Shown in pieces: positions 19,838 through 37,470 of a stretch of 37,818 bases of DNA. Under the pieces are notes generated by a model, which did no database searches, was not told the DNA's origin, and was given only the letters and a program-made list of their open reading frames with translations. Location: assembly GCA_029245025.1 (NCBI GenBank), contig JAQWQC010000017.1:1-37818 (forward strand). Direction: 5' to 3'. The position numbers and the translations under genes were made by a program. The stretch comes from Rhodospirillaceae bacterium (GTDB lineage: Bacteria; Pseudomonadota; Alphaproteobacteria; Rhodospirillales; Rhodospirillaceae). Within the stretch, counting starts at the first letter, position 1, and every line of letters begins with the position of its first letter.

Positions 19838-20665
19838 CTAAGAAAGAAAAACAATACGTACGCAAGAGTAATCAATTTTTGTGACGTCAATTTCCCGCTC
19901 TGTCTTCGAAAAATATTCTTCTGCAGCTTCCTGCACACCAAGGTGGTGACCAAAGTCGTCCAAAATCACCACTCCCCCAATCGGAATGTGATGCCCGAGG
20001 GCATCTAGGCATATTATGGTTGGTTCATACCAATCCATATCAAGTCTTAGTAATGCGATGCCTTTGTTGTCTGAAGATTTAGCGAAATCGGGTCCTGTGA
20101 CGGATGCATCTCCCTTCACCAACTTCACTATATCTTTGGGGTAGTCTCTTAATAAAACAGAAAGGTTATTTTGCACGTCCTCGATGGTTACCGACGCCCA
20201 TTCGCCATCTCTTTCCATAACTTCATGAAACACTTTGTTCTGATTGGTGCCGTGAATATCCAGTTCCCAATCATGGGGCTCAGGGTGACCTTCAAACGTG
20301 TCAAACCCGAAAAGACGGCGCTTCTCGGATATGGAAACGGACCAATCCAAAACATTTGTCAGGTCAGCCGCTTGTTTTTCCTTCGTGTTCATATTTAATA
20401 CGTTAAAATAATTTACCAATTTCTGATTGGCTGCCAGGGCCATACACCCAAGTGCACCGCCTTTCCACACACCAAATTCAACAAAATCTCCAGCTACTTG
20501 GCGACGGCGCAATTGAATTATTGTAAAATAAAGGTCAACTAGGCGCTCTATAGGGAGCATGGTGTAATCTGCGATTACACGCTCAAAGAACTGCAGTAGA
20601 TCCGAGGGAATCGTTTGCCTCACTTTATTTATGTGGTTTCGGACCTGCTTTTCTTCGGACGTCAT
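19838..20665 (-). CDS. TylF/MycF-type O-methyltransferase
   Basis: This 275-residue protein shows the TylF family pattern: 'GDFVEFGVWKGGALGCMALA' (SAM-binding loop), 'RLFGFDTFEGHPEPHDWELD', 'VKLVKGDASVT' and the metal-binding pair 'LLRLDMDWYEPT' and 'IGGVVILDDFGHH'. TylF and MycF are Mg-dependent methyltransferases of sugar hydroxyls (macrocin and mycinamicin). Relatives are common in O-antigen and capsule loci. It is the last gene of the leftward glycan operon, 95 bases after the acetyltransferase. A GGA seven bases before ATG 20665 may serve as ribosome site. The likely substrate is a hydroxyl of the sugar built by the upstream genes. Confidence 0.88.
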   Translation of the reverse strand: MTSEEKQVRNHINKVRQTIPSDLLQFFERVIADYTMLPIERLVDLYFTIIQLRRRQVAGDFVEFGVWKGGALGCMALAANQKLVNYFNVLNMNTKEKQAADLTNVLDWSVSISEKRRLFGFDTFEGHPEPHDWELDIHGTNQNKVFHEVMERDGEWASVTIEDVQNNLSVLLRDYPKDIVKLVKGDASVTGPDFAKSSDNKGIALLRLDMDWYEPTIICLDALGHHIPIGGVVILDDFGHHLGVQEAAEEYFSKTEREIDVTKIDYSCVRIVFLS

Positions 20666-20760: not shown

Positions 20761-21942
20761 TTACATGTTGTCTCCCTGAAATACAAATTTCATCAATCGA
20801 CCAAACAACAGATTCTGAATGTTCTCGTATTGATTCGGCGGTATGCTTTCTATGGATTTGCAATCATCACTACTTAGACGGCCAGAAATAAACTCGACAA
20901 AAGCGAGTGTCGATGCATCTGGGCCTTTGGAGACCGAGACGAATGGTTTATCTGCATCATTACCGAAATGTATGGAGAAGCCTTTGAATTTGGCCGTAGC
21001 CTCGAATGAATGGTCTATCTTGGTAACTAGGCTCTGAAGTGAAGGGGCCAACTTCACCGCAGCATCAAATTCATCAGTTATCAGTAGCAAGTCGCCACCA
21101 TGGGTGTTGTTGTGAACCAATCGTTTATTGGGTTCTATGTCAACGATGCTTGCAACCACCGAATTGTCAGGAATCTTTAGTTCGAACGTGTCGTGTCCTT
21201 TCTCAGCATAGTAACTACCAAGCGCAGACAGTGCGGCCTCAATAGATACTTCATCATTTCTAAAAACGATCTCCCGAGGCGATTCAGGAACATATGGATC
21301 ATCGCAGAAATAGCATACAGCGATACCGTTTTTGTCTCTAATGACGCGAGGTTCGTAGAAATAATAAGTATTTGAAGCGTCGTTAATCAGCCAAAGCCAA
21401 TCTTCTATACTACGGGCTGCTGCGAAACAGACGCCTCGAGTGTAACTTTCGTATAAGCTTCTATAAACTTCCGCATCACTGCAATTGCGCTCGACGGAAG
21501 TTCCTGCGTTTTTTTGATCGCTCTTGGCAACAACAACGACGCGTTTTATCTTATCTACGTACTTAGTGAATCCAAAGCTCTGATAATAATGAGGAATTCC
21601 TTGTATGTAGATAAATTCAAAATTCTTTGACGATAAGTGTTCAATGACACTGTTCATTAAGAATTTGCCAACACCTTTGCCTTGCGCATCAGGCTTAACG
21701 GCAACGGGCCCAATAGATGCTGCCGCGAACTTGATGCCGAGATGATTGATGATTCTGGTGCAATACGCCAAATAGGCAATCACTATGCCGTTCTCTTTAA
21801 CAACGAACCTATTGTAGTGGCCGACCCCAGGGGTTTTGCCTAGCTCCTCAAAATTTTGACTTTGCTTGGTGTCTTCAAACGCGGCTTGGAGAAGCGAGAG
21901 TACCTCATCAAAATCGTCTATGTCGTATGGCAAAAAATTCAC
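20761..21942 (-). CDS. GNAT-family N-acetyltransferase with long C-terminal extension
   Basis: The N-terminal GNAT domain is clear: 'GPVAVKPDAQGKGVGKFLM' carries the Q-x-x-G-x-G acetyl-CoA loop, followed by 'FEFIYIQGIPHYYQSFGFTK', where the Y-x-x-x-G-F element is typical. The protein is 393 residues, much longer than a single GNAT domain (about 150). The rest resembles a second GNAT-like domain plus a small sterol-carrier-like end, as in Eis-type enzymes. ATG 21942 overlaps the stop of the aminotransferase gene (ATGA), so the two are coupled. The natural inference is acetylation of the amino group installed by that aminotransferase on an NDP-sugar. Confidence 0.8.
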   Translation of the reverse strand: MNFLPYDIDDFDEVLSLLQAAFEDTKQSQNFEELGKTPGVGHYNRFVVKENGIVIAYLAYCTRIINHLGIKFAAASIGPVAVKPDAQGKGVGKFLMNSVIEHLSSKNFEFIYIQGIPHYYQSFGFTKYVDKIKRVVVVAKSDQKNAGTSVERNCSDAEVYRSLYESYTRGVCFAAARSIEDWLWLINDASNTYYFYEPRVIRDKNGIAVCYFCDDPYVPESPREIVFRNDEVSIEAALSALGSYYAEKGHDTFELKIPDNSVVASIVDIEPNKRLVHNNTHGGDLLLITDEFDAAVKLAPSLQSLVTKIDHSFEATAKFKGFSIHFGNDADKPFVSVSKGPDASTLAFVEFISGRLSSDDCKSIESIPPNQYENIQNLLFGRLMKFVFQGDNM

Positions 21943-23126
21943 TTATCTGATCTGCCAAAAATGTCCACAAGAATAGAAGCGGCCGCAGCCGCCTGGCTCT
22001 CCGAAATAAGAGGATGCAATTCGAGTTCCAGTAATCTTTCTATTTGGTAGTCTTGAGAGACCGGTAATTGGTTGTCTTTGTAGGGAGTGTCCACAGAGGC
22101 GCTGGAGTTAAATGGACTTAGCCAGGGCGCGCCTCTTGCTGGAGTCGCGTAGGGATTGAAATGTGGATGCTCGTTGAGAGGCTGCCAAGTTCTTTTTACT
22201 GGAATTCCGGTTTCATTGGCGCGTCTTATCTTCACGTCAACATCATCACGACCTAGCGGTTTTGTGTCGATAAGGAGGCTGTAGTAAACAGCCTTGGCTT
22301 TATTCGACTGATACACGACCGGTTTTAAAACGCTTTCATCAGGAAGTGCGTGGCAAAAAGCGTCAACGTTTTTTCGGCGTTTGTAGTTGTCATTTTCAAG
22401 CCGCTGCAAACCAACCTGCGCTAGAGCGGCAGAAAATTCAGACATCCTATAGTTATAGCTTAAGTCAGTATCGCCAAAGGAACGTAGGCGATTGACCCGG
22501 TCTGCAACTGATTTGTGCTTGGTAATTAAGGCGCAGCCATCCCCAGTGCTTATGGGCTTCCGTTGTTGCATACTAAAGACGCCGACGTCTCCAAAGAGAC
22601 CGACATGTTTTTGGTTTACGCGTAAGCCAAAAGAATGGGAGCAATCTTCGATCAGAATTATATTATTAGACCTGCAAAATTCTGATATCTCTTCTATCTC
22701 GGCCGGGTAGCCGAACATATGTACAAGAACAATAGCCTTTGTTTTTGGGGTTACCTTTTCTTTGATAGACTTGATATCTAACCCAAAGGTGTTGGGTTCT
22801 ATATCTGCGAAGATTGGTATAGCGTTTTGCATCAAAACGCATGAAGCGCTCGATATCCAGGAATAGGGTGTGACAATAACTTCGTCGTCGACTCCGATAT
22901 CTGTGGCGGCAAGGGCTAGGTGAAGACCTTGGGTGGCATTGCCAAGACCGACAGTATGATCGCTACCTGTAAAATCAGAGAAAATTTCTTCAAGGGCTTC
23001 TAATTCAGGACCATTAAAGAGCCGGTTAGATTTAATAACCCGATTTACCGCTTCAGCATGTTCTTCATCGTAGTGCGGCCACTCAGACCATGAGGCCAGA
23101 TGAATCTCTTTCTCTTCTTTGGTCAT
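21939..23126 (-). CDS. DegT/DnrJ/EryC1/StrS PLP-dependent aminotransferase
   Basis: The protein is a sugar aminotransferase of the StrS family. 'VGLGNATQGLHLALAATDI' and 'DEVIVTPYSWISSASCVL' form the PLP pocket, 'ILIEDCSHSFG' holds the Asp contacting the pyridine nitrogen, and the Schiff-base lysine is in 'FSMQQRKPISTGDGCAL'. These enzymes transfer an amino group, usually from glutamate or glutamine, to a keto-sugar nucleotide or keto-cyclitol. ATG 23126 was chosen because AGGGA lies upstream and the start then aligns with relatives (395 residues). ATG 23153 and TTG 23177 are in frame; the latter overlaps the methyltransferase stop. It would act after an oxidation or dehydration step provided by the SDR or ADH enzymes of the operon. 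Confidence 0.9.
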   Translation of the reverse strand: MTKEEKEIHLASWSEWPHYDEEHAEAVNRVIKSNRLFNGPELEALEEIFSDFTGSDHTVGLGNATQGLHLALAATDIGVDDEVIVTPYSWISSASCVLMQNAIPIFADIEPNTFGLDIKSIKEKVTPKTKAIVLVHMFGYPAEIEEISEFCRSNNIILIEDCSHSFGLRVNQKHVGLFGDVGVFSMQQRKPISTGDGCALITKHKSVADRVNRLRSFGDTDLSYNYRMSEFSAALAQVGLQRLENDNYKRRKNVDAFCHALPDESVLKPVVYQSNKAKAVYYSLLIDTKPLGRDDVDVKIRRANETGIPVKRTWQPLNEHPHFNPYATPARGAPWLSPFNSSASVDTPYKDNQLPVSQDYQIERLLELELHPLISESQAAAAASILVDIFGRSDK

Positions 23127-23169
23127 CCATATTGTCCCTGAGGCGGTGGTCATTAGGGGCGTTTCACAT

Positions 23170-23820
23170 CTAATCAAAATAGATGAAAGAATGATCTCCA
23201 GTGTAACCGGTGTGTTTAAACCACCAGTCCCATTCTTCCGGTGTATTGAATTGTTCGCAGGTGACCTGCCAGTACAACAGGTTCGTTTTTTCTTCTTCTG
23301 TTCTGTAGGATTCTACACACAGGTATTTCTGCTTCCCAACACGCTCCATTTCACGCAGGGCGGAATCAAGGTCGTAAGAATAAAGATTGTGGAGTGCATT
23401 AATGGAGATGACGAGGTCAAATACATTTTCACCATAGGGTAGGGATGTGGCGCTCCCTTCATCAATTTGGTCTTTTATTTCGGATTTCGCATTTTCAATT
23501 GCGTAGCTTGAGATGTCGAGGCCACGGACTTCAATGCCAGGTAAAACCTGGGTGAAATCAAACATCAAAAACCCTTTGCCGCAGCCAACATCTAGAACAC
23601 GGTCCCCAGCCTTGAGGCCGTAATGCTCAACCATCAGAGCAGCAATTTTTGACCAGCGGCCTTCCATGTAACGGTAACCACCGTAATTAATTCGACGGTC
23701 GCCGTCCCAATAATCGTAATCCCATTTCTTTGCGAGGTTTGCCGCGTGTGCTTTTGGGTATTCCGAATCATTGACCCGTGCCAAATAATCACGCTGCGTG
23801 CTCTTGTGTAGAGGGGACAT
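23170..23820 (-). CDS. class I SAM-dependent methyltransferase
   Basis: The 216-residue protein carries SAM motif I 'RVLDVGCGKGFLMFDFTQVL', then 'EVRGLDISSYAIENAK', 'GSATSLPYGENVFDLVISIN' and 'ALHNLYSYDLDSALREMERV', the Methyltransf_11 layout. ATG 23820 lies four bases after the stop of the kinase gene; a GTG at 23865 would extend it into that gene. The tail 'EEWDWWFKHTGYTGDHSFIYFD' is seen in methyltransferases of polysaccharide loci. As a member of the glycan operon it probably methylates the sugar or its phosphate- or amino-substituent. The exact acceptor is unknown. Confidence 0.85.
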   Translation of the reverse strand: MSPLHKSTQRDYLARVNDSEYPKAHAANLAKKWDYDYWDGDRRINYGGYRYMEGRWSKIAALMVEHYGLKAGDRVLDVGCGKGFLMFDFTQVLPGIEVRGLDISSYAIENAKSEIKDQIDEGSATSLPYGENVFDLVISINALHNLYSYDLDSALREMERVGKQKYLCVESYRTEEEKTNLLYWQVTCEQFNTPEEWDWWFKHTGYTGDHSFIYFD

Positions 23821-23824
23821 AAGA

Positions 23825-24859
23825 TCAAGATAGGCCAATTGGCACTCCTTCGGATAACAGGTCACCGGCGCGGGCTAGTCGTTCTTGGATGAGAGTTCCC
23901 ACTGATTTAGAAACATCTACCGCAAGCATAGTGTCTAGTCTCTTCGGCTTTAACACAGCGAGAACAATGGTCACCCACTTTAAGTGCAAGATGGCTGCCA
24001 ATGCGTGGGCGCGTGGCCGCAATATATCCATCGAAATGGTTGATGCAACTGTATTCTCCATAATATTCAGATACTTAGGAGACACACGGATGCGGGGTTG
24101 AAGGAAGAAGTCGACAACCGTTTTCGTAGGGTCGTCCCAGCCCGAAAACTCAAAATCATGAAACTTAAGACCGTCTTGGCAAGATATTGCGTTATGAAAT
24201 CCAAAGTCCGAAGGGGACAGTATGCAGTTCTCGGACAGCAGTGTGTTCGTGCATTTCCCTGCTGAAATGCTTGTTTCCAGGTTTTTAGAAACAATCTGCC
24301 AGCGCTCCTTAACTCTGGAAACCAAAGACACGGCTTGATCTGTGAAGCGACCTGGAATGTGATTGCATTCTAGGCTGTCAATCCTGTTTTCCAGGTCATT
24401 CAAATGTTCATTCAGGCTCATGAAGCCGTCTGCAGCTTGGCTACTGATCTTTTGCCTCGCATTGGTGTCATGAGCATTAAGAGCTGCGAGAAAGTCAGCA
24501 GCTCGGTGTACATCTTCTTTGGACGGTACATACGACTCCTTGAATCCAGTGCCCTCAAGGTACTCCATCGCCACGATCCGAGAGTCAGGATCGCTTTGCA
24601 GGAGATTGGGCACAAATTCAGGGGCGACTTTGTTAGCAAAACTCAAGAATTCAGTTTCAGAGAGGAGCCTGTCGGTCTTGCTAGAATTGATGGGGTTATA
24701 ATGCTTAACAATTGCCCTGCCGGAAGATGTTTCCCACAAAAAGACCTTATTGTTTGCGCCACCGGACTGCTGAGTGGCTGCGGCACCACTCGTGCCCAGG
24801 TGTTTTTCACACCACGCGCGCAACTCCTGCGGCAACGCTTCTATTTGCTGCTCAGCCAC
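23825..24859 (-). CDS. APH-fold small-molecule kinase
   Basis: This is an aminoglycoside-phosphotransferase/choline-kinase-fold protein. The N-lobe shows 'GGANNKVFLWETSSGRAIVK' with the ATP-binding lysine. The catalytic loop reads 'LSPSDFGFHNAI' (catalytic Asp and Asn, with Ser in place of the usual His), and the metal-binding motif is 'KFHDFEFSGWDDP'. GTG 24859 is preferred because an upstream ATG at 24940 would overlap the HAD gene by about 100 bases in another frame. From GTG the protein is 344 residues and starts VAEQQIEALPQEL. Relatives phosphorylate sugars, choline or amino alcohols. Immediate coupling to a HAD phosphatase suggests both act on one phosphorylated intermediate. An antibiotic-resistance role is unlikely in this setting. 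Confidence 0.8.
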   Translation of the reverse strand: MAEQQIEALPQELRAWCEKHLGTSGAAATQQSGGANNKVFLWETSSGRAIVKHYNPINSSKTDRLLSETEFLSFANKVAPEFVPNLLQSDPDSRIVAMEYLEGTGFKESYVPSKEDVHRAADFLAALNAHDTNARQKISSQAADGFMSLNEHLNDLENRIDSLECNHIPGRFTDQAVSLVSRVKERWQIVSKNLETSISAGKCTNTLLSENCILSPSDFGFHNAISCQDGLKFHDFEFSGWDDPTKTVVDFFLQPRIRVSPKYLNIMENTVASTISMDILRPRAHALAAILHLKWVTIVLAVLKPKRLDTMLAVDVSKSVGTLIQERLARAGDLLSEGVPIGLS

Positions 24860-25452
24860 GAGAGTTCTGTCCAATGGCTGATGATTGTTAGTCCACCAGG
24901 GGAGTCTTCGTCTTTCGCACCTGAGCCCAAAGAGAACCATAGTTTTTGGGCTCTCTTCGGGAATTTTTCATCTATCAGAACTTCCACCAGGTCATCTAAG
25001 AACACATCACATTTTAATGAGCCCACGAGGGAAATTTTCTGGTCCCTAGTTTCATTGAGATGCACGTCACTTGTTTGAAACAGCGGCCGACCAGATACCA
25101 GAAGAGTACTGCTAATCCAGTCTTTAGCAGACTGATGCAGATCGTACTGCGGTCCGAGGTACGGGTACCGTGTACGATGACTAATAATAACTGTCGTATG
25201 GCCCGCCTTTTGAAAGTTAGAAATCACCTCTATCGCGGAGGGAAAGGGCTCAGCGTACGCCATGCCAGGACCGTATAGCCTTCCTTGAAACTCAGTCCAT
25301 TCAGGTTCTCTACCCTCAGCTCGCAGATAGTCGCGCACCCCCAATTTGGTTCTTGGGATATCGCCCGGCAATGAGTCCATATCCGAAGCAAGCTGTTCGA
25401 TCGCTGCGTCATAACATACGATCGTATTGTCGAGATCTAGACCTATGATCAT
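24841..25452 (-). CDS. HAD-superfamily phosphatase
   Basis: The 203-residue protein has the HAD motifs: 'GLDLDNTIVCYD' (nucleophile and acid/base Asp), 'TVIISHRTRYPYLG' (motif II), a lysine around 'DQKISLVGSLK' and 'CDVFLDDLVEVLI' (motif IV acids). It lacks the cysteine-rich zinc loop of GmhB, so it is not a classical heptose-bisphosphate phosphatase, although it could fill that step here. ATG 25452 directly abuts the stop of the transketolase C half (TAA-ATG), and the 3' end overlaps the kinase gene, so translation is coupled on both sides. Confidence 0.82.
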   Translation of the reverse strand: MIIGLDLDNTIVCYDAAIEQLASDMDSLPGDIPRTKLGVRDYLRAEGREPEWTEFQGRLYGPGMAYAEPFPSAIEVISNFQKAGHTTVIISHRTRYPYLGPQYDLHQSAKDWISSTLLVSGRPLFQTSDVHLNETRDQKISLVGSLKCDVFLDDLVEVLIDEKFPKRAQKLWFSLGSGAKDEDSPGGLTIISHWTELSWLSSK

Positions 25453-26394
25453 TTACGACGCTGCGCTCTCTACGCTCTTTAGACAATCTTGAGTTGCGTT
25501 AACAATACTGGCTGCATCTATCCCAAAATATGCCCTGGCATAGGATTGGGAGCCCACAGAATGCATGAATTTATCTCCGGTTCCGAGACAAGTGATAGAC
25601 GTAGAAATTCCTTGCTGAGCTAAATACGCGGATACGTGTTCCCCATAGCCACCGTTCTTCGAGTGCTCTTCGACCGTAACAATCGCCTTAAATCGTTGAG
25701 ACAGAGAGGTAAGCATACTCTCGTCGAGGGGCTTGACTGTGTTGACGAGAACAACTTCTGCAGAAATACCGTGAACCTCTTTCAATGTGTCAGCTGCAGC
25801 TATAACTTCGGGTCCAATAGTACCGACAGATAGCACGCAAACGTCTTCTCCCTGGCGTACAACCGTTGCTTCACCAATTCCGGCAGCGTCTTCGTTTGAG
25901 ACAAGGTCCTGCTCACCTTTTTTGCCAATTCTGATGTACGTAGGAACACCAGACCCAACTGCTTCACTCAATACTTTGCGTAAGGATGGAGCGTCATAGG
26001 GTGCTAAGACACGTATGTTAGGAATAGCCCGGAATATAGCGAAATCTTCTAGGGAGTGATGAGTTGGTCCCAAACTCGCGTAAGAAAGACCAGAGCCCGT
26101 GCCGACAATGACGACAGGGGCGTCATGATATGCAACGTCGACCCTAATCTGTTCGAGACATCTGGTCGTGGTGAAGGGCGTGATCGTGTATACGATTGGC
26201 CGCAAACCGCTTAATGCCATGCCCGCCGCGACACCCATCATATTCGCCTCGGCCACGCCGCAGTTCATAAATTGTGATGGGTAACCTCCGCGTAATTCAT
26301 CAAATAGGCGGTTACCGATATCGCCGGACAATAAGACCAACTTAGGGTCCTCAGCCGCCATCGCCGTTACTTCTGCTGCGAATGCATTTCTCAT
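25453..26394 (-). CDS. Transketolase, C-terminal (pyrimidine/transketolase_C) subunit
   Basis: This 313-residue protein corresponds to the second half of transketolase. 'FMNCGVAEANMMGVAAGMAL' holds the conserved Glu that activates thiamine diphosphate, and 'GPTHHSLEDFAIFRAIPNIR' is the usual pyrimidine-domain signature. The C-terminal domain includes 'VLSVGTIGPEVIAA' and 'IVTVEEHSKNGGYGEHVSAYL'. It pairs with the N half encoded 10 bases upstream, together making the active site at the subunit interface. Split transketolases move two-carbon ketol units and can make sedoheptulose-7-phosphate from pentose phosphates. Presence inside a sugar operon with a GmhA-like isomerase suggests a dedicated heptulose supply. 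A role in branching a deoxysugar by ketol transfer is an alternative. Confidence 0.9.
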   Translation of the reverse strand: MRNAFAAEVTAMAAEDPKLVLLSGDIGNRLFDELRGGYPSQFMNCGVAEANMMGVAAGMALSGLRPIVYTITPFTTTRCLEQIRVDVAYHDAPVVIVGTGSGLSYASLGPTHHSLEDFAIFRAIPNIRVLAPYDAPSLRKVLSEAVGSGVPTYIRIGKKGEQDLVSNEDAAGIGEATVVRQGEDVCVLSVGTIGPEVIAAADTLKEVHGISAEVVLVNTVKPLDESMLTSLSQRFKAIVTVEEHSKNGGYGEHVSAYLAQQGISTSITCLGTGDKFMHSVGSQSYARAYFGIDAASIVNATQDCLKSVESAAS

Positions 26395-26404
26395 GGAACT
26401 GACC

Positions 26405-27244
26405 CTACGCCTCTATACCTAGTTCTTTGGCGGCGAGACCCACTTCTTCAGCAGTAGGAATGCGGTAGTGCCAATTATTGTCGTCTTCCATGAAGGAAAC
26501 TCCGCGCCCTTTTACGGTGTTAGCTATGATTGCCTTCGGGCGGGGGTCATTTCTATTTTTCTCAATGGCGTCGGCCATTTGATTTAAATTGTGGCCATCA
26601 ATTTCACTAACACACCAACCAAAAGCGCTCCATTTTTCTGCTAGTGGCGCTAGGCCTAGAACTTCATTGCTGCGCCCCGTGGCTTGCCATTTGTTGTAAT
26701 CAATAGCGACTGTTAGGTTTGAAACCTTCTGGGCGGCGGCCAGCAGGGCTGCTTCCCATACTGAACCTTCATTGCATTCGCCATCGCTTAAAATTGCGTA
26801 TACCGAGTACGGTACGTCGGAAATGCGGGACGCTAGTGCCATACCTAAGCCTATAGGCAAGCCATGCCCAAGAGAGCCGGTTGCAGCCTCAATGCCAGGC
26901 AGTGCTGACGGCGTGGGGGGGTGTTCACCAAAAAGGGAGCCGTCTTCTCCATAATTATTCAGATCGGAAACCGGGAAAAATCCTCGCTCAGCAAGCACTT
27001 GAAATAATGCCGGTGCCGCATGCCCCTTGCTAAGGAGAAATCGATCTCTTTTGGGGTTCGTGGGGTCCGTAGGGTCGATCTGGAGAATGTGCCAATACAA
27101 GAACACTAACAAATCAATGCAGGACAAGCAGGAGCCAAGGTGAGGGGTCCCCGATTCATGAGACGTCTTGATAATGCGATGCCGGAGCATTTGAGCTATT
27201 TGCTCGAGAGATCCCATGTCATTTTGGATCGGTGCTTCAGGCAT
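26405..27244 (-). CDS. Transketolase, N-terminal (thiamine diphosphate-binding) subunit
   Basis: The 279-residue protein is the diphosphate-binding half of transketolase. 'SHESGTPHLGSCLSCID', 'LSKGHAAPALFQVLAERGFF', 'GSLGHGLPIGLGMAL' and the ThDP/metal motif 'ILSDGECNEGSVWEA', ending at 'DYNKWQ', are in the expected order. The usual GDG of the metal motif is SDG here. ATG 27244 is taken as start; ATG 27217 is an alternative, and neither has a strong ribosome site. It lies 17 bases after the preceding SDR gene and 10 bases before the C half, so the two subunits are certainly co-expressed. Confidence 0.9.
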   Translation of the reverse strand: MPEAPIQNDMGSLEQIAQMLRHRIIKTSHESGTPHLGSCLSCIDLLVFLYWHILQIDPTDPTNPKRDRFLLSKGHAAPALFQVLAERGFFPVSDLNNYGEDGSLFGEHPPTPSALPGIEAATGSLGHGLPIGLGMALASRISDVPYSVYAILSDGECNEGSVWEAALLAAAQKVSNLTVAIDYNKWQATGRSNEVLGLAPLAEKWSAFGWCVSEIDGHNLNQMADAIEKNRNDPRPKAIIANTVKGRGVSFMEDDNNWHYRIPTAEEVGLAAKELGIEA

Positions 27245-27261
27245 GGTTTATTGGAGTCCAG

Positions 27262-28251
27262 TTAGGGGCGATGAAAATATGAAAGTGGTTGCTTACGCAA
27301 TGTTTCCAAGTTGTCTTTAGCCCAACCTATGCAATGCTCCAAGCCGGTTTCAAGGCTTATTTGGTCGGTCCACCCGAGAGTTGACCGTATTTTGTCGCTG
27401 TTGAGCCAATAGGCATCATCTTTACCGACTCTATCGGGTGCAACGTCGACACAATCCTCAAACGGTGCATCCAACATTGCGCAAATCAATTCAACTAGTT
27501 CTCGTATGGAAACAATTTTCGGTGTCGAGATATGATATGTTTCACCTACTGGGGCATTTTGAGCGACAGCCCAGGTGGCTAGCGACACGTCGTCCATATG
27601 TATGAATGATCGCGTGGAAACCCCGCCACCATGGAGCTGTAACTTATCTCCTAAGAGGACAGATAGGATCGTCCTCGGAATAATGCGGTAAAGGCGCTGA
27701 CCTGGCCCATAGACATTCGCAGCTCGCGTGCCGACGACCGGAAGTCCAAAAGATTCTCTATAAATATCGAATGTCATATCACCCGCTGCGCGAGAAACCG
27801 CATAAGGCGTAGATGGAGCAAATTTTTGGTCTTCTATGATCCAGCCGTCTGTGGAGCCATAAACTTCCGGCGTGGTGACGTGCACATACTTGTCGAGGAA
27901 ATCAATATGACGCAGCTTTTCGGCTAACTTAGAGGCGGATACAACGTTGGTCATCATCCAGTCCTCAGGGTGATCCCAACTTTGCCCAACCATACTCTGA
28001 GCAGCAAAGTTGACGATGGTTGAGAATCGTTCCGTATTTATCATTGACACCAAGGAATCCAAATCGTGATTGAGATCCACCTTTTCGAAATGAAAAGTTC
28101 CAGGCTTTTTCTCCCAACGGTATGGAAGAAAAACAGGATCTGGCTCTTCGGAGCGACTTGCGCCAACGACATCGATACCTTGGTCCAATAGGTAACTGAT
28201 AAAACTCGTGCCCGAGAATGAATTACTGCCAAGAACGAGGACTTTAGACAT
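27262..28251 (-). CDS. SDR-family NAD-dependent sugar epimerase/dehydratase-like protein with altered catalytic residues
   Basis: This 329-residue extended SDR resembles NDP-sugar 4,6-dehydratases: 'KVLVLGSNSFSGTSFISYL' (nucleotide-binding loop, first Gly shifted), 'NFAAQSMVGQSWDHPEDW', 'VHVTTPEVYGSTDGW' and 'STPYAVSRAAGDMTFDIYRE'. Two catalytic positions differ from classic RmlB-like enzymes. The Tyr-x-x-x-Lys pair reads Y-A-V-S-R, and the catalytic Asp-Glu of 'TDEVYG' reads 'TPEVYG'. The substrate side has 'ANVYGPGQRLYRIIPR'. The protein probably still binds NAD and an NDP-sugar, but the chemistry may be an epimerisation or oxidation rather than dehydration. It sits between the dehydrogenase and transketolase genes. 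Confidence 0.85.
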   Translation of the reverse strand: MSKVLVLGSNSFSGTSFISYLLDQGIDVVGASRSEEPDPVFLPYRWEKKPGTFHFEKVDLNHDLDSLVSMINTERFSTIVNFAAQSMVGQSWDHPEDWMMTNVVSASKLAEKLRHIDFLDKYVHVTTPEVYGSTDGWIIEDQKFAPSTPYAVSRAAGDMTFDIYRESFGLPVVGTRAANVYGPGQRLYRIIPRTILSVLLGDKLQLHGGGVSTRSFIHMDDVSLATWAVAQNAPVGETYHISTPKIVSIRELVELICAMLDAPFEDCVDVAPDRVGKDDAYWLNSDKIRSTLGWTDQISLETGLEHCIGWAKDNLETLRKQPLSYFHRP

Positions 28252-28290
28252 AAAATTATTGGTTTCAGATTTTAAGTGGTGTGGGGCGAA

Positions 28291-29358
28291 TTAGAGCGAG
28301 AAATCAATTAAGCATCGTCCTGTGGACTTACCGTTCCGCATCTTAGCAATTAGATCATTGACCCCTGAAAGAGGTTCGACCTCGGTAATGAGGTCGTTCA
28401 GGTCAACATTGCGAGCCTCGGTGAGGGCCATGTAGCGAGGAATATCTTCATGAGGTATTGCCTCGCCCCCAGTGGTGCCTGTGATCGACTTACCAAAGTG
28501 TAACGGAAGTGTATGGATCGCAGTGTCGTTGCCCGACCTAGGTACGCCTACGAGAATTGTTCTACCCCGGTTTGATGTGAGTTTGTAACCCTCGGCAATA
28601 ACAGTCGGGGCGCCGGTATTATCGATAAACACGTCCAGTGGTTCGTCAGCAAAAATTTCTTTCAATCGGTCCCAGGGATTTATCTGTGAGCCATCAATTG
28701 TCTCAGTGGCCCCGCAGGATTTCGCGAGCTCAAGCCGATTCGCGAACCGGTCGATGGCAATGATTGCGCGAGCACCAGCTAATGCGGCGCCTTGGACGAT
28801 ATTTAATCCGATGCCACCAGCCCCGAAAACAACAACGGTATCGCCTAGACGAACATTTGCGCAGTTGTCAATTACGCCAAATCCAGTCGTGACCGCGCAT
28901 CCATACAAAGCGGCGGCCTTTAGGTCGGTCGCTGCTGGAATTGGGGTTAACCGGTTTTCAGAAACAACCGCGTAGTTGTTAAAAGTGGTAACCCATCCTG
29001 CGTTTACTATTTTGTCATACCATTTGTATTTTGGTGCTGCAGATTCGATACCCCGAGACGGCCGCCAATGCAGCACCACTGTATCTCCCGGTTGTACGTG
29101 TTTAACACCGGGGCCAATGGCGAGTACATAGCCTGAGCCTTCGTGCCCGAGTAGGTGAGGAAGCCAATGATCAGGGCCTTTGACACCGTCAATCTCACCC
29201 AGTTGAGAACCGCAGATTCCGCTATATTTTATTTCGACGAGCACTTGCCCAATATCCAGGGTGTCGGGCAGTGATATTTCGTCGATCACGAGGTCAGTGT
29301 TTTGCTCTACCAGGACTGCTGCTTGGGTGGTTGTTGGTCCGTCGTTAATTGCTATCAT
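28291..29358 (-). CDS. medium-chain zinc-type alcohol dehydrogenase
   Basis: The MDR-fold protein has catalytic-zinc ligands in 'IKYSGICGSQLGEIDG' (Cys) and 'HLLGHEGSGYVLAIG' (His-Glu), and the cofactor loop 'VVVFGAGGIGLNIVQGAALA' followed by 'IIAIDRF' (Asp at the end of the second strand, favouring NAD). The structural-zinc lobe with four cysteines is absent; its place is taken by 'LHWRPSRGIESAAPKYKWYD'. ATG 29358 lies one base after the stop of the isomerase gene and gives 355 residues. It probably oxidises a hydroxyl of the sugar or an intermediate to a ketone, which the aminotransferase could then aminate. Neighbour context is the basis for that inference. Confidence 0.85.
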   Translation of the reverse strand: MIAINDGPTTTQAAVLVEQNTDLVIDEISLPDTLDIGQVLVEIKYSGICGSQLGEIDGVKGPDHWLPHLLGHEGSGYVLAIGPGVKHVQPGDTVVLHWRPSRGIESAAPKYKWYDKIVNAGWVTTFNNYAVVSENRLTPIPAATDLKAAALYGCAVTTGFGVIDNCANVRLGDTVVVFGAGGIGLNIVQGAALAGARAIIAIDRFANRLELAKSCGATETIDGSQINPWDRLKEIFADEPLDVFIDNTGAPTVIAEGYKLTSNRGRTILVGVPRSGNDTAIHTLPLHFGKSITGTTGGEAIPHEDIPRYMALTEARNVDLNDLITEVEPLSGVNDLIAKMRNGKSTGRCLIDFSL

Positions 29359-29359
29359 T

Positions 29360-29977
29360 CTAGTCAGCCCACGTCGGTGCAATGTCGCTGCGCTTTGCAT
29401 AAAGCCACTGCATGAGGAGGTGACCGACTGTCATCTGAAGGTCTTCGGATATTTGCATGTCATCGATGGCGACATGTATTGGATGATCAGCTAGAGCCAA
29501 AGCCTTACCCCCAGTGTATCCGAGGATGGCATAGGATTCGATACCGGCTTCTTTGCAGTACTCCAATGCCTTTACGATATTAGGTGAGTTCCCGCTGCCG
29601 GAGAGCGCGATGGCGATATCACCCGGTCGGGCGAGAACGGCAAGTTGGTATGAGTAAATACTTTCATACCCTTCGTCATTGGCAAGGCAAGTGGTCACTG
29701 ACCCATTCGACGGTAAGGCGGTCACCCGAAGTCCACTACCAAAGGTCTTTGAAATACCGTATATCCAGTCGTTGGCCAGATGCATGGCGTTACCAGCCGA
29801 TCCACCATTGCCGAAAATAAACACCTGCCGTCCGTCCTGCCAGCTGGACATTAACGCGTCTGCTAAATGTTTAACTGCATCTAAAGGGATGCGATTACTG
29901 GCCTCAGTCAGGCGTTCAAAATAGCTGGTGGCGAAGGCTGCGAATTCTGACGACGCCGTGGTGGGCTGATCATTCAT
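29360..29977 (-). CDS. gmhA: SIS-domain phosphoheptose isomerase-like protein (GmhA-like)
   Basis: The 205-residue SIS-domain protein matches GmhA: 'VFIFGNGGSAGNAMHLANDW', 'VTALPSNGSVTTCLANDEGYE', 'PGDIAIALSGSGNSPNIVKAL' and a C-terminal 'SEDLQMTVGHLLMQWL'. GmhA converts sedoheptulose-7-phosphate to D-glycero-D-manno-heptose-7-phosphate, using zinc held by His, Glu, Gln and His. By eye the His ligands are kept, but the Glu and Gln positions read Asp and Glu, a variant seen in some surface-sugar clusters. Its stop overlaps the neighbouring dehydrogenase region and its ATG abuts the SDR gene. With the split transketolase it forms the basis for calling this a heptose pathway. The symbol is by similarity. 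Confidence 0.8.
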   Translation of the reverse strand: MNDQPTTASSEFAAFATSYFERLTEASNRIPLDAVKHLADALMSSWQDGRQVFIFGNGGSAGNAMHLANDWIYGISKTFGSGLRVTALPSNGSVTTCLANDEGYESIYSYQLAVLARPGDIAIALSGSGNSPNIVKALEYCKEAGIESYAILGYTGGKALALADHPIHVAIDDMQISEDLQMTVGHLLMQWLYAKRSDIAPTWAD

Positions 29978-30912
29978 TATAGAATCTTCTCAGTCATCCA
30001 TTTCATACAATAGAAGCGGTCTTCATCCTTTAGTGCCCCAGTATTATAGGCATCGGCTACTTCGGAGATGGCATCTCTCACAGATTTCTTAGGTTTGAAG
30101 CCAGTCGCAAGGATCTTGTCTGAATTAATGCGATAAGATCGAGGGTCGTTGGATGGCTCAATATTGATTTTGGCAGGAATGTGCTCGGCAATGGTCTCTG
30201 CGATGGTTCGGATCGACAGATTCTCAAATCCTGCGTTAAAAACACCTTGGACATCTGGTCGATCTAATAGAAACACATAGAGATCGGTTATGTCGTCAAT
30301 ATGAATGTTGGGGCGGGTCTGGTCTCCGCCAAGGACAGTTATTGCTCCTTTTGTAAGGGCCTGCATCGCAAGCATATTCACTGCGACGTCTAGGCGCATG
30401 CGAGGAGACAAACCGCAAACTGTGGCCGGCCGCAAGATCTGGACAGCCATCTGATCGGCGTAGCTAAGTAACACCCGCTCAGCGACCATTTTGGTCTTAT
30501 TATATTCAGATAGAGGAACGAGCTCTAGATCTTCCGTTACGTGCTCTTCCTCTTTGAGGCCATAAACGCTGCCAGATGACGCATAGATAAAGCGTTTGAC
30601 CCCTTGGCGCACAGCCTTATCTGCCAGCCGCATCGTGGCGAGGCAAGAAACCTCCCAAGTGAGCTTAGGGTCCAAATCTCCACATGGGTCATTAGCAACC
30701 GATGACAGATGGATGATGGCATCGCACCCCGTTAGATCAAGGTCTTCTGGGTCACGAATGTCAAACTGACGGACTTCTAGGTTTGGGTGAGGTTGAAGGT
30801 CGTTCCCGAACCACATGATATCGAGTGCGGTTACATGATGGCCAGCATCAAGCAGTTTCGGCACGAGGACGTTTCCTTTGTAGCCACACGCACCAGTAAC
30901 AATAAGATTCAT
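29977..30912 (-). CDS. SDR-family NAD-dependent epimerase/dehydratase
   Basis: This 311-residue extended SDR has an intact cofactor loop ('LIVTGACGYKGNVLVPKLL'), 'LDIMWFGND', the 'DAIIHLSSVANDPCGDLDP' segment, 'FIYASSGSVYG' and the catalytic Tyr-x-x-x-Lys as 'SEYNKTKMVAERVLL'. It is of the UDP-glucose/heptose epimerase type and probably acts on the NDP-heptose made by its neighbours. ATG 30912 overlaps the stop of the nucleotidyltransferase gene (ATGA); a start four codons earlier is possible. In contrast to the other SDR of the operon, all catalytic residues look normal. Confidence 0.88.
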   Translation of the reverse strand: MNLIVTGACGYKGNVLVPKLLDAGHHVTALDIMWFGNDLQPHPNLEVRQFDIRDPEDLDLTGCDAIIHLSSVANDPCGDLDPKLTWEVSCLATMRLADKAVRQGVKRFIYASSGSVYGLKEEEHVTEDLELVPLSEYNKTKMVAERVLLSYADQMAVQILRPATVCGLSPRMRLDVAVNMLAMQALTKGAITVLGGDQTRPNIHIDDITDLYVFLLDRPDVQGVFNAGFENLSIRTIAETIAEHIPAKINIEPSNDPRSYRINSDKILATGFKPKKSVRDAISEVADAYNTGALKDEDRFYCMKWMTEKIL

Positions 30913-31631
30913 TTTGTATTCCAAACAAAGTCGGACTCAGCCTTTTTGAGCGCCGCTATCGTTCCAATATCCCGGTGAAAAGTCTCGTTAAAAAACGTAT
31001 ACCATTTGCCAGTTAGAGATGGCACCACATCGCCGCAAAAATCGAACGCCTCAGGGTTCGCGCAGACCCAATCAAGTACTTCAGTCTCAAGAAGAAAAAC
31101 AGCCCCATTTGCAAGGTTTCCTGGTGGATTTTCTACTTTCTCGTGGACGCATTGCACGACTTCATGGCTATCCAGTTCCAAAATCCCACATGATTGTGGT
31201 TGATCTGTCTCAAAGGTCATAATGGTGCCCACACATTCCCGTGGACGACTTTCGTGGGTTAAAAAGTAGGCCGCGGGATCAAAGACTGAAAGATTGTCTG
31301 CGTGGGCCATGAAAAAAGGACTCTGGCCACGAAAGTAGTCGTGATTCGCCCGAAGTGTACCTGCGGTGCCAAGTAATTCTTCCTCATGTACTAAGTCTAT
31401 CTGATCTTGCCAAGTATCACTGTTGCAGTAGTCGCGGACTTGGTCTGGCAGGTAGTGGGTATTGATGAGTATGCGTTCAACGCCTGCATCCAGAAGCATA
31501 TCTATCCAGTATCCCAAGACAGGCCTTCCTTGAACCGGCACAAGACATTTTGGAATGGTCTCTGTCAGGGGCCGCAAGCGTGTACCAAGACCACCGGAGA
31601 GCAGTAACGCACGGCTTGGCACATTCATCAT
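30909..31631 (-). CDS. sugar-phosphate nucleotidyltransferase (HddC/RmlA type)
   Basis: The 240-residue protein begins 'ALLLSGGLGTRLRPLTETIP', the pyrophosphorylase loop G-G-x-G-T-R-L-x-P-L-T, followed by 'PKCLVPVQGRPVLGYWID' and 'INTHYLPDQV'. 'FFMAHADNLSVFD' carries the metal-binding Asp, and 'CVHEKVENPPGNLANGAVFL' binds the sugar. It fits the group that includes D-glycero-alpha-D-manno-heptose-1-phosphate guanylyltransferase (HddC) and mannose-1-phosphate guanylyltransferases; the nucleotide cannot be settled by eye. The start ATGATGA overlaps the stop of the HldE-like gene, so the two are coupled. It is the second nucleotidyltransferase in the operon. Confidence 0.87.
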   Translation of the reverse strand: MMNVPSRALLLSGGLGTRLRPLTETIPKCLVPVQGRPVLGYWIDMLLDAGVERILINTHYLPDQVRDYCNSDTWQDQIDLVHEEELLGTAGTLRANHDYFRGQSPFFMAHADNLSVFDPAAYFLTHESRPRECVGTIMTFETDQPQSCGILELDSHEVVQCVHEKVENPPGNLANGAVFLLETEVLDWVCANPEAFDFCGDVVPSLTGKWYTFFNETFHRDIGTIAALKKAESDFVWNTK

Positions 31632-33064
31632 CGCGTTAGAGAATCTGTTAGTTCTTCAGTAGAAATGGGTACATTGCCGACGCGACCGGTCTGTACCCCA
31701 GCGGCAACTGAACCTAAAAAGGCGGCTTCCCAGGTTGAAGCGCCAGCCGAAAGAGCTAATGAAGCAGCGGTTAGCATGGAATCTCCTGCGCCGGAAACAT
31801 CCTTGGGTAGAGCATTAAAGGCTGGGAGTCTGTCCACTTGCTGTTCTTCTGGTGCTTGCTCAGCGGAGACAATAAGGACACCCGCGGCACCAAGCTTAAC
31901 GAACACATTCGCGCTATTCGTTGCAGACAGCAAATCATGGCCCATTTTGGCCAGCCCACTGTTTTGGTCTCGCAAGGCGAGCCGGGCTTCAAACTCGGTT
32001 GGCGTTAAGAGATGGGCGTTCTTGTACCTTGAAATGTCTCCGACCTGAGAGGACGACTGGCTATCTGCAACAAACATAGTCGAGCTTTGTTTTGCAGTGC
32101 TGGCCAAGTGATCAATAAGGGGTTGCGGTAGGCAGCCATAGTTAAAGTCAGAAAAGATAACAAGGTCTGCTTTAGAGCACAAAGCTACGAAAGTAGATGC
32201 TATTTCGCTTTGGTGATCACGGGATATTTCGTGCTGTCTTAGGTGGCTTACGCGCAACATGGTGCGATCCTGGGCCCGAAATCGCTGTTTGAGTGTTGTT
32301 GGTCGGCTAGCGTCAGTAATCAGGTGGGCGTTCACGTTGTATTCTGGCAGCCATGTAGCAACCCGATCGCCCGTTTCGTCATCGCCGACGATGGACAAGA
32401 AATCAACTGAAGCACCCAGACTGGCGGCGTGTGCGGCCACGATGCCAGCGCCACCAATAAATCGATCGGTGGATTGCGGTGAGACGACAATTGAGGGTTC
32501 TTCCTGTGACATCCCTAAGGGTTCACAATTGATATACTCATCGATAATGAGATCACCGACGACGATCACCGAAAGGTCAGAAAAAGTTTTAACCCGATTG
32601 ACCAGTTGATCGTTTCTTAATCCGTGGCGTTCTAAAAAGTCTTGAGGAATATTGAGCCGGGCGGCCTGAGAAAATTGATTGTCGTGGGCAAGAAGATCTG
32701 AAGCTGAATATGTCGATTCACCGGATGCGAAGATGAGGTGGCCACCATATTCTTTTATGATTGGTTCTTCGGGATTAGAAGCTGACTCGAACTCTTTTCC
32801 TTTGATCACGATGTTGGGCTTAATTTCGCGTAGATAGGCCTCAACCCCATCATTTAGAACGACAACGCGGTCAACTATACCTAACTCCCGCAATGCTGCT
32901 GCTCGTTCTTCGGGAGGAGGAACGTCTTTAGATGGCCGTGTGGCCGAGACGCCGACTATTAGGGTATTGCCGCTTTCGGCAGCAAACTTAAGCACCCTCA
33001 CATGCCCCGGGTGAAGAGCGAAGAAATTACCGGAAATAAAAACGACGGTGTCAGACTTTTTCAT
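31628..33064 (-). CDS. HldE-like fusion with reversed domain order: nucleotidyltransferase then PfkB kinase
   Basis: The 478-residue protein has two domains. Residues 1-135 form a cytidylyltransferase-fold domain with the H-x-G-H motif ('SGNFFALHPGHVRVLKFA') and 'KPNIVIKGKEFE'. Residues about 165-478 form a PfkB/ribokinase kinase with 'VIVVGDLIIDEYI', 'FIGGAGIVAAHAASLGA', and the anion hole and catalytic Asp in 'LPKDVSGAGDSMLTAASLAL'. Classical HldE has the same parts with the kinase first. The kinase phosphorylates heptose-7-phosphate at C1, and the other domain adenylylates heptose-1-phosphate. It is the first gene of the leftward glycan operon, and the following gene overlaps its stop. Function is inferred by domain content. 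Confidence 0.88.
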   Translation of the reverse strand: MKKSDTVVFISGNFFALHPGHVRVLKFAAESGNTLIVGVSATRPSKDVPPPEERAAALRELGIVDRVVVLNDGVEAYLREIKPNIVIKGKEFESASNPEEPIIKEYGGHLIFASGESTYSASDLLAHDNQFSQAARLNIPQDFLERHGLRNDQLVNRVKTFSDLSVIVVGDLIIDEYINCEPLGMSQEEPSIVVSPQSTDRFIGGAGIVAAHAASLGASVDFLSIVGDDETGDRVATWLPEYNVNAHLITDASRPTTLKQRFRAQDRTMLRVSHLRQHEISRDHQSEIASTFVALCSKADLVIFSDFNYGCLPQPLIDHLASTAKQSSTMFVADSQSSSQVGDISRYKNAHLLTPTEFEARLALRDQNSGLAKMGHDLLSATNSANVFVKLGAAGVLIVSAEQAPEEQQVDRLPAFNALPKDVSGAGDSMLTAASLALSAGASTWEAAFLGSVAAGVQTGRVGNVPISTEELTDSLTR

Positions 33065-33240: not shown

Positions 33241-34911
33241 TCAACCCCCCGGTTCCATAATCCGAACCGTCTGACGCCCGGATAGGCTGGTTAAAACCTG
33301 TGTCGTTCCGCTCGGCCATGAGACCTCGATACGGTCGACCGTATCTGAATCGCCAAGCCCAAACATTAAAATTGGGTCATTCGTTGAGTTGTAGCCGTGA
33401 GCGCTGGTGTGTTCTCGTATTTGGGTGAGTTCACCTGATTTCACTTTGACCTTGGCGCCATACCCATTTCTATTGCTGATTGATCCGGTTAATTCGATCT
33501 TGATCCAGCTGTTCTCGTTACCTTGATTCATTAGCAGGTGATTCTGTTGTGCAATGTTCACCCGTTTCCCTTCGCTATAGTAGGTGCGGTTGGTCATGAA
33601 TAGATCAGGAAATCCGTCGTCATTAATATCAGCCGCGCCAACGCCGCTACCGATGCCAAACCCCTCTGCACCCGAGCCACTTGTCACATCAGTAAAGGTC
33701 CCGTCCCCGTTATTTCTAAATAATTTGTTATCGGCGGGCTGCCACGCGATATAGAATTGAACGAAAGGGACCATTGTGCTGATTACGTCGTTAATCAGAA
33801 CGTTAGAGAGTCCACCGTTATTGACATAGATATCAAGCAGTCCATCGTTATCGAAGTCCGCCATAGTGCAGCCCCTGGCGCCACCGGGATCCCCCGCACC
33901 TGATGTCAATGTTATATCATCAAATCCAACCTCTCCGTTATCCGACAACGTGCTGATGATTAGGCGGTTGGCTTGATCAGCTGTCGGCAGATAGAAATCA
34001 AAATCTCCGTCATTGTCGACATCACCAATGCAAGCCCCATTGGCGTTACCAGGATTCAGAAACGCAAATCCATTGGGGCCAAGGCGGTTTTTTGTGATGT
34101 CAGTGAAGGTTCCGTTTTTATTATTTAACAGGATGATTTTGGAATCACCTTCGTTGGTGATTAGAAGGTCAACCCAGCCATCGCTATTAAAGTCTGTCCA
34201 ATTCGGTGCACCTTGAGAATTTGCTTCTAGGACTTTGCTTTGTATGGCAACACCGGATGTTGCCGTTACATCAGTAAAAGTTCCGTCCCCGTTATTGCGA
34301 AACAATGCGTTCTCGATGTCGTAATCGGCGCACTTCCAGAAGAGGTCAAGATCGCCATCATTGTCATAGTCGCCCCAGGCAACACCTGCGCCGGTGTCAG
34401 ACAACCCGCCAACACGCATATCATCTTCGTTACCTTCTCGCATGATGCCAGCAGCGCGCGTGATGTCCTCAAAATCGGCTTTGCCAGTCTCAATCAACAA
34501 ATTTTTGTATAGAGTTGTTGGCACGTGTTTTATGGCGCCTGGTCCGGGTCCCATATTTGAGATGGCCAGGTCTTGATCACCGTCATTGTCAAAGTCACCC
34601 CAAGAGGCACCCCGTGCGAGTCCGCCGTCATTATCGACTTGCCGTTGTGCAGCGACATCACGAAAGCGCCCCGTACCGTCATTCTCCCAAAGGCGATTGT
34701 TGAGCCCCTCCGCTAAGGCTTCTCCGGCGACATAGATATCGAGATCTCCGTCATTATCGTAATCGGCGAAAGCAGGGCCTGATCCATTGACGGCTAAGTC
34801 ACTAACACCGACAGAGTCGCTCACGTCCTCGAAAAGGATGGGCGGGGACGCTGCGAGCGCTGAGTGGGCTGTGAGGTACGCTGCAATAAAAGTGAATAAC
34901 CGGTGCCGCAT
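33241..34911 (-). CDS. secreted FG-GAP/VCBS repeat protein with ASPIC/UnbV domain (CRTAC1-like)
   Basis: A signal peptide (FTFIAAYLTAHSALA) is followed by seven calcium-binding FG-GAP/VCBS repeats. They can be read as 'DYDNDGDLDIYV', 'DFDNDGDQDLAI', 'DYDNDGDLDLFW', 'DFNSDGWVDLLI', 'DVDNDGDFDFYL', 'DFDNDGLLDIYV' and 'DINDDGFPDLFM'. This is a beta-propeller like integrin alpha chains. The C-terminal 'NGYGAKVKVKSGELTQIREH' to 'DRIEVSWPSGTTQVL' matches the ASPIC/UnbV domain. Such 550-residue proteins are widespread in marine bacteria and are thought to be exported and calcium-stabilised; function is not established. It precedes the glycan operon on the same strand, 176 bases upstream of its first gene. 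Confidence 0.88.
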   Translation of the reverse strand: MRHRLFTFIAAYLTAHSALAASPPILFEDVSDSVGVSDLAVNGSGPAFADYDNDGDLDIYVAGEALAEGLNNRLWENDGTGRFRDVAAQRQVDNDGGLARGASWGDFDNDGDQDLAISNMGPGPGAIKHVPTTLYKNLLIETGKADFEDITRAAGIMREGNEDDMRVGGLSDTGAGVAWGDYDNDGDLDLFWKCADYDIENALFRNNGDGTFTDVTATSGVAIQSKVLEANSQGAPNWTDFNSDGWVDLLITNEGDSKIILLNNKNGTFTDITKNRLGPNGFAFLNPGNANGACIGDVDNDGDFDFYLPTADQANRLIISTLSDNGEVGFDDITLTSGAGDPGGARGCTMADFDNDGLLDIYVNNGGLSNVLINDVISTMVPFVQFYIAWQPADNKLFRNNGDGTFTDVTSGSGAEGFGIGSGVGAADINDDGFPDLFMTNRTYYSEGKRVNIAQQNHLLMNQGNENSWIKIELTGSISNRNGYGAKVKVKSGELTQIREHTSAHGYNSTNDPILMFGLGDSDTVDRIEVSWPSGTTQVLTSLSGRQTVRIMEPGG

Positions 34912-37216: not shown

Positions 37217-37470
37217 CAATTTTATTCCACTAATCACCGGTTCGTCGGTTGTACCAGCCACGATAAGATGGATCAATGAGCGCCCATCCGCTTGCGTAAG
37301 CCTGATGTGGAACCTGAATCGTTGGGGTTGTCGTCTGAAACTTTGGAGCCCGTGCTGACAATAAACCTCAATGCGCCATTGGCTGTCGATATTGTCGGGC
37401 ATGTTGTGAGGCCTGCCCTGCGTTAACTTTTTAACATGGGGCTTTCAGCTGCCTGTTTATTCTGCCCCCA
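37217..37470 (-). other. stretch upstream of the broken cytidylyltransferase, no recognisable gene
   Basis: A frame continuous with the cytidylyltransferase start runs back to 37402, but its residues (for example 'SFRRQPQRFRFHIRLT') match nothing I recognise and no ribosome site supports it. Another frame reads 'YASGWALIDPSYRGWYNRRT' before a stop. This could be the remains of a further gene of the nonulosonate locus. No intact gene is seen. Confidence 0.35.

Follow-up and report, generated by a model that had tools for sequence, protein, structure and literature searches.

This study concerns a stretch of 37,818 nucleotides from a Rhodospirillaceae bacterium (hereafter the window, meaning the whole stretch of DNA that was analysed; contig C25 of a 3.09 Mb assembly that is 98.15% complete) and an operon within it, in which thirteen tightly packed open reading frames (ORFs) on the minus strand fill positions 20761-33064. 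As judged from its genes, there is in our view an even chance that the product of this operon is a heptose-type sugar nucleotide that carries a two-carbon branch and is destined for a surface glycan, with a split transketolase, a thiamine diphosphate (ThDP)-dependent enzyme made up of an N and a C subunit, supplying the branch. Somewhat more tentatively, and just short of even, we propose that the operon belongs to a widespread family of surface-glycan clusters in which an NDP (nucleoside diphosphate)-keto-heptose would receive a two-carbon unit to yield C9 branched sugars, either via a split transketolase (ketol unit) or via an E1-type pair (acetyl unit). The window would represent the transketolase version, and the substitution H461G would mark ketone-accepting transketolases outside antibiotic producers. 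The carbon count and the identity of the sugar are what we infer from sequence.

A ThDP enzyme pair beside a reversed HldE

The first gene of the operon encodes an HldE-like protein with reversed domain order. A scan with this protein returned six named loci, and the nearest named relative of the window is L002, labelled Alphaproteobacteria. In whole-genome searches, in which the own genome was counted, the reversed HldE was present in 13 of 385 genomes of the class (E <= 1e-60) and in 6 of 398 genomes of the phylum (E <= 1e-55); the plasmid search gave no match to it. Of the 16 genomes searched for Transketolase_C, 15 have a match no more than 15 kb away from the reversed HldE, the miss being G427, where the locus sits on a 24 kb contig. 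Random placement, calculated from match counts and genome sizes, would lead one to expect 0.84 genomes, corresponding to a formal p of ~4e-19 with related genomes treated as independent. The 16 genomes include 14 of the 17 non-window genomes with a reversed HldE, G099, G473 and G497 (contigs of 7 to 15.3 kb) being left out, and G043, found via its SIS gene, was added.

The nature of the ThDP enzyme differs between clusters, and on the HldE tree it has switched at least three times: four changes are required, of which starred branches force three. Among 24 related loci, ten encode a split transketolase (L002-L005, L007, G381, G225, G121, G454 and G043), ten an E1 alpha/beta pair resembling that of pyruvate dehydrogenase (L006, G168, G323, G342, G259, G298, G059, G086, G181 and G107; one E1 beta row was dropped from later residue tables), and four neither type (G099, G473, G497 and G427). 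The methyltransferase found in the operon is present at 16 of the 20 ThDP loci and at none of the four that lack the pair, and a HAD-like protein together with an APH-family kinase accompanies six of the ten transketolases and none of the ten E1 pairs. Moreover, transketolase and transaldolase coexist at two loci of one genus (G225 and G121), and the window genome contains a housekeeping transketolase. E1 enzymes of this family act on 2-oxo acids, and sedoheptulose-7-phosphate is not their product. Taken together, the exchange for E1 pairs, the donors of these enzymes and the coexistence with transaldolase suggest, as the simplest reading, that the ThDP pair serves two-carbon transfer onto a sugar. 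As a side observation, an acetolactate-synthase-like ThDP enzyme is also encoded near the E1-type loci L006, L022, L023 and L024.

An altered substrate site shared with keto-sugar clusters

His461, Asp469 and Arg520 are listed among the substrate binding and recognition residues of transketolase in PMC4601599. When these positions were located on the alignment by motif, the operon transketolase showed G, L and K, and the genome's housekeeping transketolase H, D and R; the ThDP-contacting residues Glu411 and His473 are retained as E and H in all aligned rows. H461G is found in 15 of 15 sequences, namely the 14 rows that form the sugar-cluster group of the tree plus G381, and in none of ten other split transketolases. 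R520K occurs in 12 of the 14 sugar-cluster rows, Azospirillum having R and L007 being truncated (the Lentisphaerae C subunit, L007:9330-9812, comprises 160 residues and stops before the C-terminal domain).

Plasmids supplied additional members of the group: from the 413 records that matched a transketolase, 15 regions were taken, two of them without annotation. The split transketolase of Methylovirgula pHY1 follows rfbF-rfbG-oxidoreductase-rfbH, and that of Paenibacillus follows rfbF-rfbG and has a short-chain dehydrogenase (SDR) fused to its N subunit (L056:7097-9004); both are preceded by genes for CDP-glucose 4,6-dehydratase. Read from its gene names, the Methylovirgula cluster would make CDP-4-keto-3,6-dideoxyglucose, which is a substrate of YerE according to PMC12247030. 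Solidesulfovibrio pDCAR1 has the gene order pseB, pseC, HAD, APH, transketolase N, transketolase C, methyltransferase. Neither SIS, HldE nor alcohol dehydrogenase (ADH) gave a match in the Methylovirgula, Paenibacillus and Solidesulfovibrio stretches. Relatives of the operon lacking the isomerase and HldE, which an earlier first-pass annotation of the window had said would count against its own model, exist in part: Solidesulfovibrio has the HAD-APH-transketolase-methyltransferase block without either.

Some further features of these plasmid regions may be recorded. At its edge, the Methylovirgula stretch contains a truncated gene for a HAD-IIIA hydrolase, and in Ruegeria (L070:7908-8867) a partial short-chain dehydrogenase domain comes after a transketolase pyrimidine domain. 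In Azospirillum argentinense plasmid AbAZ39_p5 (L057) the group transketolase lies between genes for a B12-binding radical SAM protein and a cobalamin-dependent protein. Two Streptomyces plasmids (L059 and L068) carry a split transketolase and DegT beside LysW-type genes, on a separate branch of the tree.

Operon content and the heptose backbone

The genes named by the first-pass annotation were all recovered on the minus strand in the named families; what it had not listed is the APH-family kinase. In 5′ to 3′ order the operon, followed by the TylF gene, reads:

31628..33064, minus strand: HldE-like protein with reversed domains, nucleotidyltransferase (HPGH; PF01467 at 11-92) then PfkB kinase (GAGD; PF00294 at 165-463)
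30909..31631, minus strand: RmlA/HddC/MurU-like sugar-1-phosphate nucleotidyltransferase (PF00483, 99.3 bits; HddC model 62.6 bits, cut-off 300)
29977..30924, minus strand: SDR2, candidate NDP-heptose C4-dehydrogenase (best solved relative 6vo6/6vo8, E 2.8e-31; catalytic motif retained)
29360..29977, minus strand: SIS-family, GmhA-like isomerase with ligand set H-D-E-H (TIGR00441, 104.4 bits, cut-off 209.45)
28291..29400, minus strand: zinc-type alcohol dehydrogenase (PF00107, PF08240)
27262..28251, minus strand: RmlB-like SDR with TPE and YxxxR, usually TDE and YxxxK (TIGR01181, 195.7 bits, cut-off 365.1)
26405..27244, minus strand: split transketolase, N subunit (PF00456, 120.9 bits; nearest PDB split transketolase 6yak)
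25453..26394, minus strand: split transketolase, C subunit with H461G, D469L and R520K (PF02779, PF02780)
24841..25452, minus strand: HAD-like protein, not GmhB-like, called from motifs (DLDNT)
23825..24940, minus strand: APH-family kinase, start probably further in (PF01636, 26.1 bits, cut-off 23.2; conserved LSPSDFGFHNA and DFE..GWDDP)
23170..23865, minus strand: S-adenosylmethionine-dependent methyltransferase (PF13847)
21939..23177, minus strand: DegT-type aminotransferase (PF01041, 255 bits; nearest PDB entries are scyllo-inosose aminotransferases)
20761..21942, minus strand: GNAT N-acetyltransferase (PF13527, 58.3 bits)
19838..20665, minus strand: TylF-type O-methyltransferase, membership in the operon uncertain (PF05711, 91.2 bits)

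At eight of the 12 junctions the genes overlap, and no gap exceeds 39 bases; from this spacing we infer a single transcript. The overlap of 100 bases at the APH gene is probably a start-codon artefact. The TylF gene begins 95 bases after the end of the operon. L002-L005 have an identical gene order from HldE as far as the methyltransferase, and G381 has much of the set in a different arrangement; a chance neighbourhood was rejected, as the order repeats in the four relatives L002-L005.

The HldE-like protein was correctly placed in the kinase/nucleotidyltransferase families by the first-pass annotation, which had missed that the domains are reversed compared with canonical HldE. It scores below the HldE cut-offs (210.1 versus 345 bits and 66 versus 181.5 bits), and we rejected the possibility that it is the ordinary HldE of the genome, because a canonical HldE is encoded on contig C20 (kinase at 14-326, nucleotidyltransferase at 351-486). 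The isomerase likewise scores below the curated cut-off of TIGR00441, as do the separate GmhA-like proteins of nine other cluster genomes (180-194 bits). Its ligand set differs from that of GmhA, which we take to be H, E, Q, H. Apart from L023, where the last site is N, the remaining cluster SIS proteins also carry H-D-E-H, and six separate or cluster-free SIS copies show H-E-Q followed by H or Q. As for SDR2, the best structure match is 6vo6/6vo8, the next best reaching 4.2e-20, and 6vo6 is presumably Cj1427, a GDP-heptose C4-dehydrogenase, so that SDR2 is a candidate for a Cj1427-like NDP-heptose C4-dehydrogenase. In PMC10680097, Cj1427 is described as a C4-dehydrogenase working on GDP-heptose.

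In four genomes of the window clade (G000, G744, G745 and G746), the cluster SIS protein is the sole SIS_2 match of the genome and canonical HldE is kept over its cut-off; no GmhB match was found at 1e-10 in these four genomes, and one is present in all five searched relatives without the cluster. (The GmhA, GmhB and HldE genome searches did not include L003, nor the GmhB search G043.) The sole SIS protein and the missing GmhB match would fit an operon isomerase, and perhaps HAD-like protein, that serves general heptose metabolism. Against such a rule, 9 of the 12 other cluster-bearing genomes have a separate GmhA-like protein in the range given above; the second GmhA-like protein of G381 reaches 118 bits, and G298 and G086 show a single match. 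The isomerase, kinase, phosphatase and nucleotidyltransferase types are all present in the operon, but the HAD-like protein, the candidate phosphatase, is not GmhB-like and tracks with APH and transketolase. A heptose-type start of the pathway is plausible.

Related clusters

The related clusters fall into two main kinds. Kind I clusters, with a second nucleotidyltransferase, comprise the window clade, L006, L007, G381, G168, G323, G342, G454 and, loosely, G259; no SIS was found in the stretches examined of G168 and G342, but in the genome search both have one at ~12 kb from HldE. Kind II clusters are without the second nucleotidyltransferase. Six of them (G298, G225, G121, G059, G086 and G181) combine SIS with a GmhB-like phosphatase and a transaldolase, parts of this set occur in G107 and G427, and the contigs of G099, G473 and G497 are short. 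G043 represents a third kind with SIS, HldE-like protein, SDR2, HAD, APH and both transketolase subunits. The transaldolases score over the curated cut-off of TIGR02134 in three of three cases tested, and the GmhB-like proteins under the GmhB cut-offs in four of four (one from L006). The Kind II isomerase and reversed HldE belong to the same families as those of the window, and their pairing with a GmhB-like phosphatase and transaldolase lends partial support to the heptose backbone postulated by the first-pass annotation.

Proposed pathway and alternatives

In the pathway that we propose, the SIS isomerase would convert sedoheptulose-7-phosphate from central metabolism to aldoheptose-7-phosphate. 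The kinase of the reversed HldE-like protein, a phosphatase (perhaps the HAD-like protein) and one of the two nucleotidyltransferases would then yield NDP-heptose, into which a ketone would be introduced by the Cj1427-like SDR together with the RmlB-like SDR, the alcohol dehydrogenase or both. The split transketolase with its altered site would move a ketol (hydroxyacetyl) unit onto this ketone, giving a C9 branched sugar, and the methyltransferase would methylate it. The HAD-like protein and the APH kinase accompany the transketolase form of this branching, and in the window strain DegT and GNAT probably attach an N-acetylated amino group.

Several observations weigh against this proposal. 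The four changes of ThDP type on the HldE tree compare with an average of 7.3 in label shuffles, so that the type is partly inherited and exchange is not frequent; moreover, the rows of G043 and G259 sit on long branches. The sugar-cluster transketolase group, in which miharamycin and amipurimycin sequences were not included, has a support of 92/87, under the starred level, and a Ruegeria split transketolase also has G at 461 though it falls outside the group. Catabolic split transketolases have lost D469 as well, and K at 520 is shared by an annotated apulose transketolase, so that H461G alone separates the sets. The methyltransferase is not found at L007, G454, G043 and G298, and four of the ten transketolase loci are without HAD and APH. 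Furthermore, the isomerase ligands are unlike those of GmhA and the C7 substrate is therefore not secure, the RmlB-like SDR carries R where K is usual, and the presence of two nucleotidyltransferases is unexplained.

The first-pass annotation had instead held that the split transketolase makes sedoheptulose-7-phosphate locally for a linear NDP-heptose, which would then be aminated, N-acetylated and methylated. The gene families fit this model, the catalytic residues of the transketolase are retained, and the Kind II transaldolase shows that enzymes of ketose phosphates do join such clusters. However, E1-like pairs replace the transketolase at 10 of the 24 loci, the substrate site is altered, the enzyme appears to group with those of keto-sugar clusters without SIS and HldE, transaldolase coexists with it, and a housekeeping transketolase is already available; we therefore consider the model quite unlikely as a whole, and the role as sedoheptulose-7-phosphate supplier most likely wrong. 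The usual acceptors of transketolase are aldehydes, which would favour a chain extension, in which a terminal alcohol of NDP-heptose is oxidised to an aldehyde by the alcohol dehydrogenase and there receives two carbons from the transketolase, giving a linear nonose-type sugar. An ADH-like gene is indeed present in the operon and, beside the block, in G381. Yet in the Methylovirgula, Paenibacillus and Solidesulfovibrio stretches the transketolases adjoin keto-sugar genes and ADH has no match, and we regard this explanation as the least probable one.

It is also conceivable, though unlikely, that two sugars are made by blocks that travel together, the isomerase, HldE-like protein and SDR2 giving a heptose, and the second nucleotidyltransferase, RmlB-like SDR, transketolase, HAD, APH and methyltransferase a branched hexose. 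This would account for two nucleotidyltransferases in one operon; moreover, the HAD-APH-transketolase-methyltransferase block occurs alone, and branched hexose precursors would suit Methylovirgula. It is at odds with the co-location in 15 of 16 genomes, with the single gene order in the clade, and with the retention of the ThDP pair in Kind II clusters, which are without the second nucleotidyltransferase. A pairing of APH with the MurU-like nucleotidyltransferase as an anomeric-kinase pair was not adopted, because relatives that carry this nucleotidyltransferase together with an E1 pair show no APH match.

The aminotransferase and acetyltransferase genes, whose reactions had been taken as steps of the pathway, proved to be confined to part of the clade. 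The methyltransferase is followed in L002, as in the window, by DegT and the start of GNAT, which runs off the contig, in L004 by a gene whose domains are Methyltransf_13 and _14, and in L005 by other genes; the contig of L003 ends too early. As L004 and L005 carry other genes, these steps are not conserved, and DegT and GNAT were dropped as core steps although G381 has two distant DegT genes. The product is probably aminated and N-acetylated in the window strain. The HAD-like protein is conserved in L002-L005, G381, G043 and Solidesulfovibrio; it has no Pfam, NCBIfam or PDB match.

Relation to known systems

According to a 2025 review (PMC12247030), two-carbon branching of keto sugars is carried out by YerE and E1-type enzymes and has only been proposed for split transketolases, which are uncharacterised; their branching role is pending for two antibiotic pathways, and the 13 such sequences counted there are all from Streptomycetes, none being characterised in vitro. 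Like the window type, the split transketolases of miharamycin and amipurimycin biosynthesis are encoded by split genes together with sugar-oxidising enzymes and are proposed to transfer hydroxyacetyl to a keto sugar (PMC12247030). Unlike this Streptomycetes set, the window type occurs mostly in proteobacterial clusters of surface-glycan type with a heptose-type backbone, a distinction drawn by description rather than by comparison of sequences. YerE, known from yersiniose, and the E1-type enzymes (alphaKADH2) likewise use ThDP for two-carbon branching of keto sugars, and E1-like pairs hold the same place in related clusters; in contrast to their pyruvate donor and acetyl branch, the window transketolase type would be expected to give a hydroxyacetyl branch (PMC12247030 and PMC4753412).

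The Campylobacter capsule GDP-heptose pathway has in common with the operon an isomerase, 1-kinase, nucleotidyltransferase, candidate C4-dehydrogenase and, perhaps, 7-phosphatase, and the paper on it does not contain the word transketolase (PMC10680097). In the window, the domains of the HldE-like protein are reversed, the isomerase ligands differ and the operon is without a GmhB-like phosphatase compared with that pathway. In lincomycin biosynthesis, LmbR, LmbN, LmbK and LmbO reportedly combine transaldolase, isomerase, kinase, phosphatase and nucleotidyltransferase functions in one cluster, as in Kind II; that pathway is said to lead to a C8 sugar of an antibiotic and to be without a split transketolase. 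No description of the present gene set was found in titles and abstract openings of the open-licence literature.

The window and its relatives provide test cases outside Streptomyces for branching by split transketolases, with H461G as a mark and E1-like pairs as natural exchange partners. If the proposal is true, branched higher sugars of this kind would form a further class among the sugars of bacterial surfaces, and the enzymes might serve in the synthesis of tertiary alcohols.

Neighbouring genes

A protein encoded at 18093-18998 on the plus strand of the window has no Pfam or NCBIfam match and is ~26% related to genes near the G381 and G259 clusters. A PseF-like cytidylyltransferase at 36589-37402 (minus strand) is split over two ORFs in different frames. 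Upstream of the operon, an FG-GAP/UnbV protein (33241-34911, minus strand) is kept in L002-L005 at 72-96% identity.

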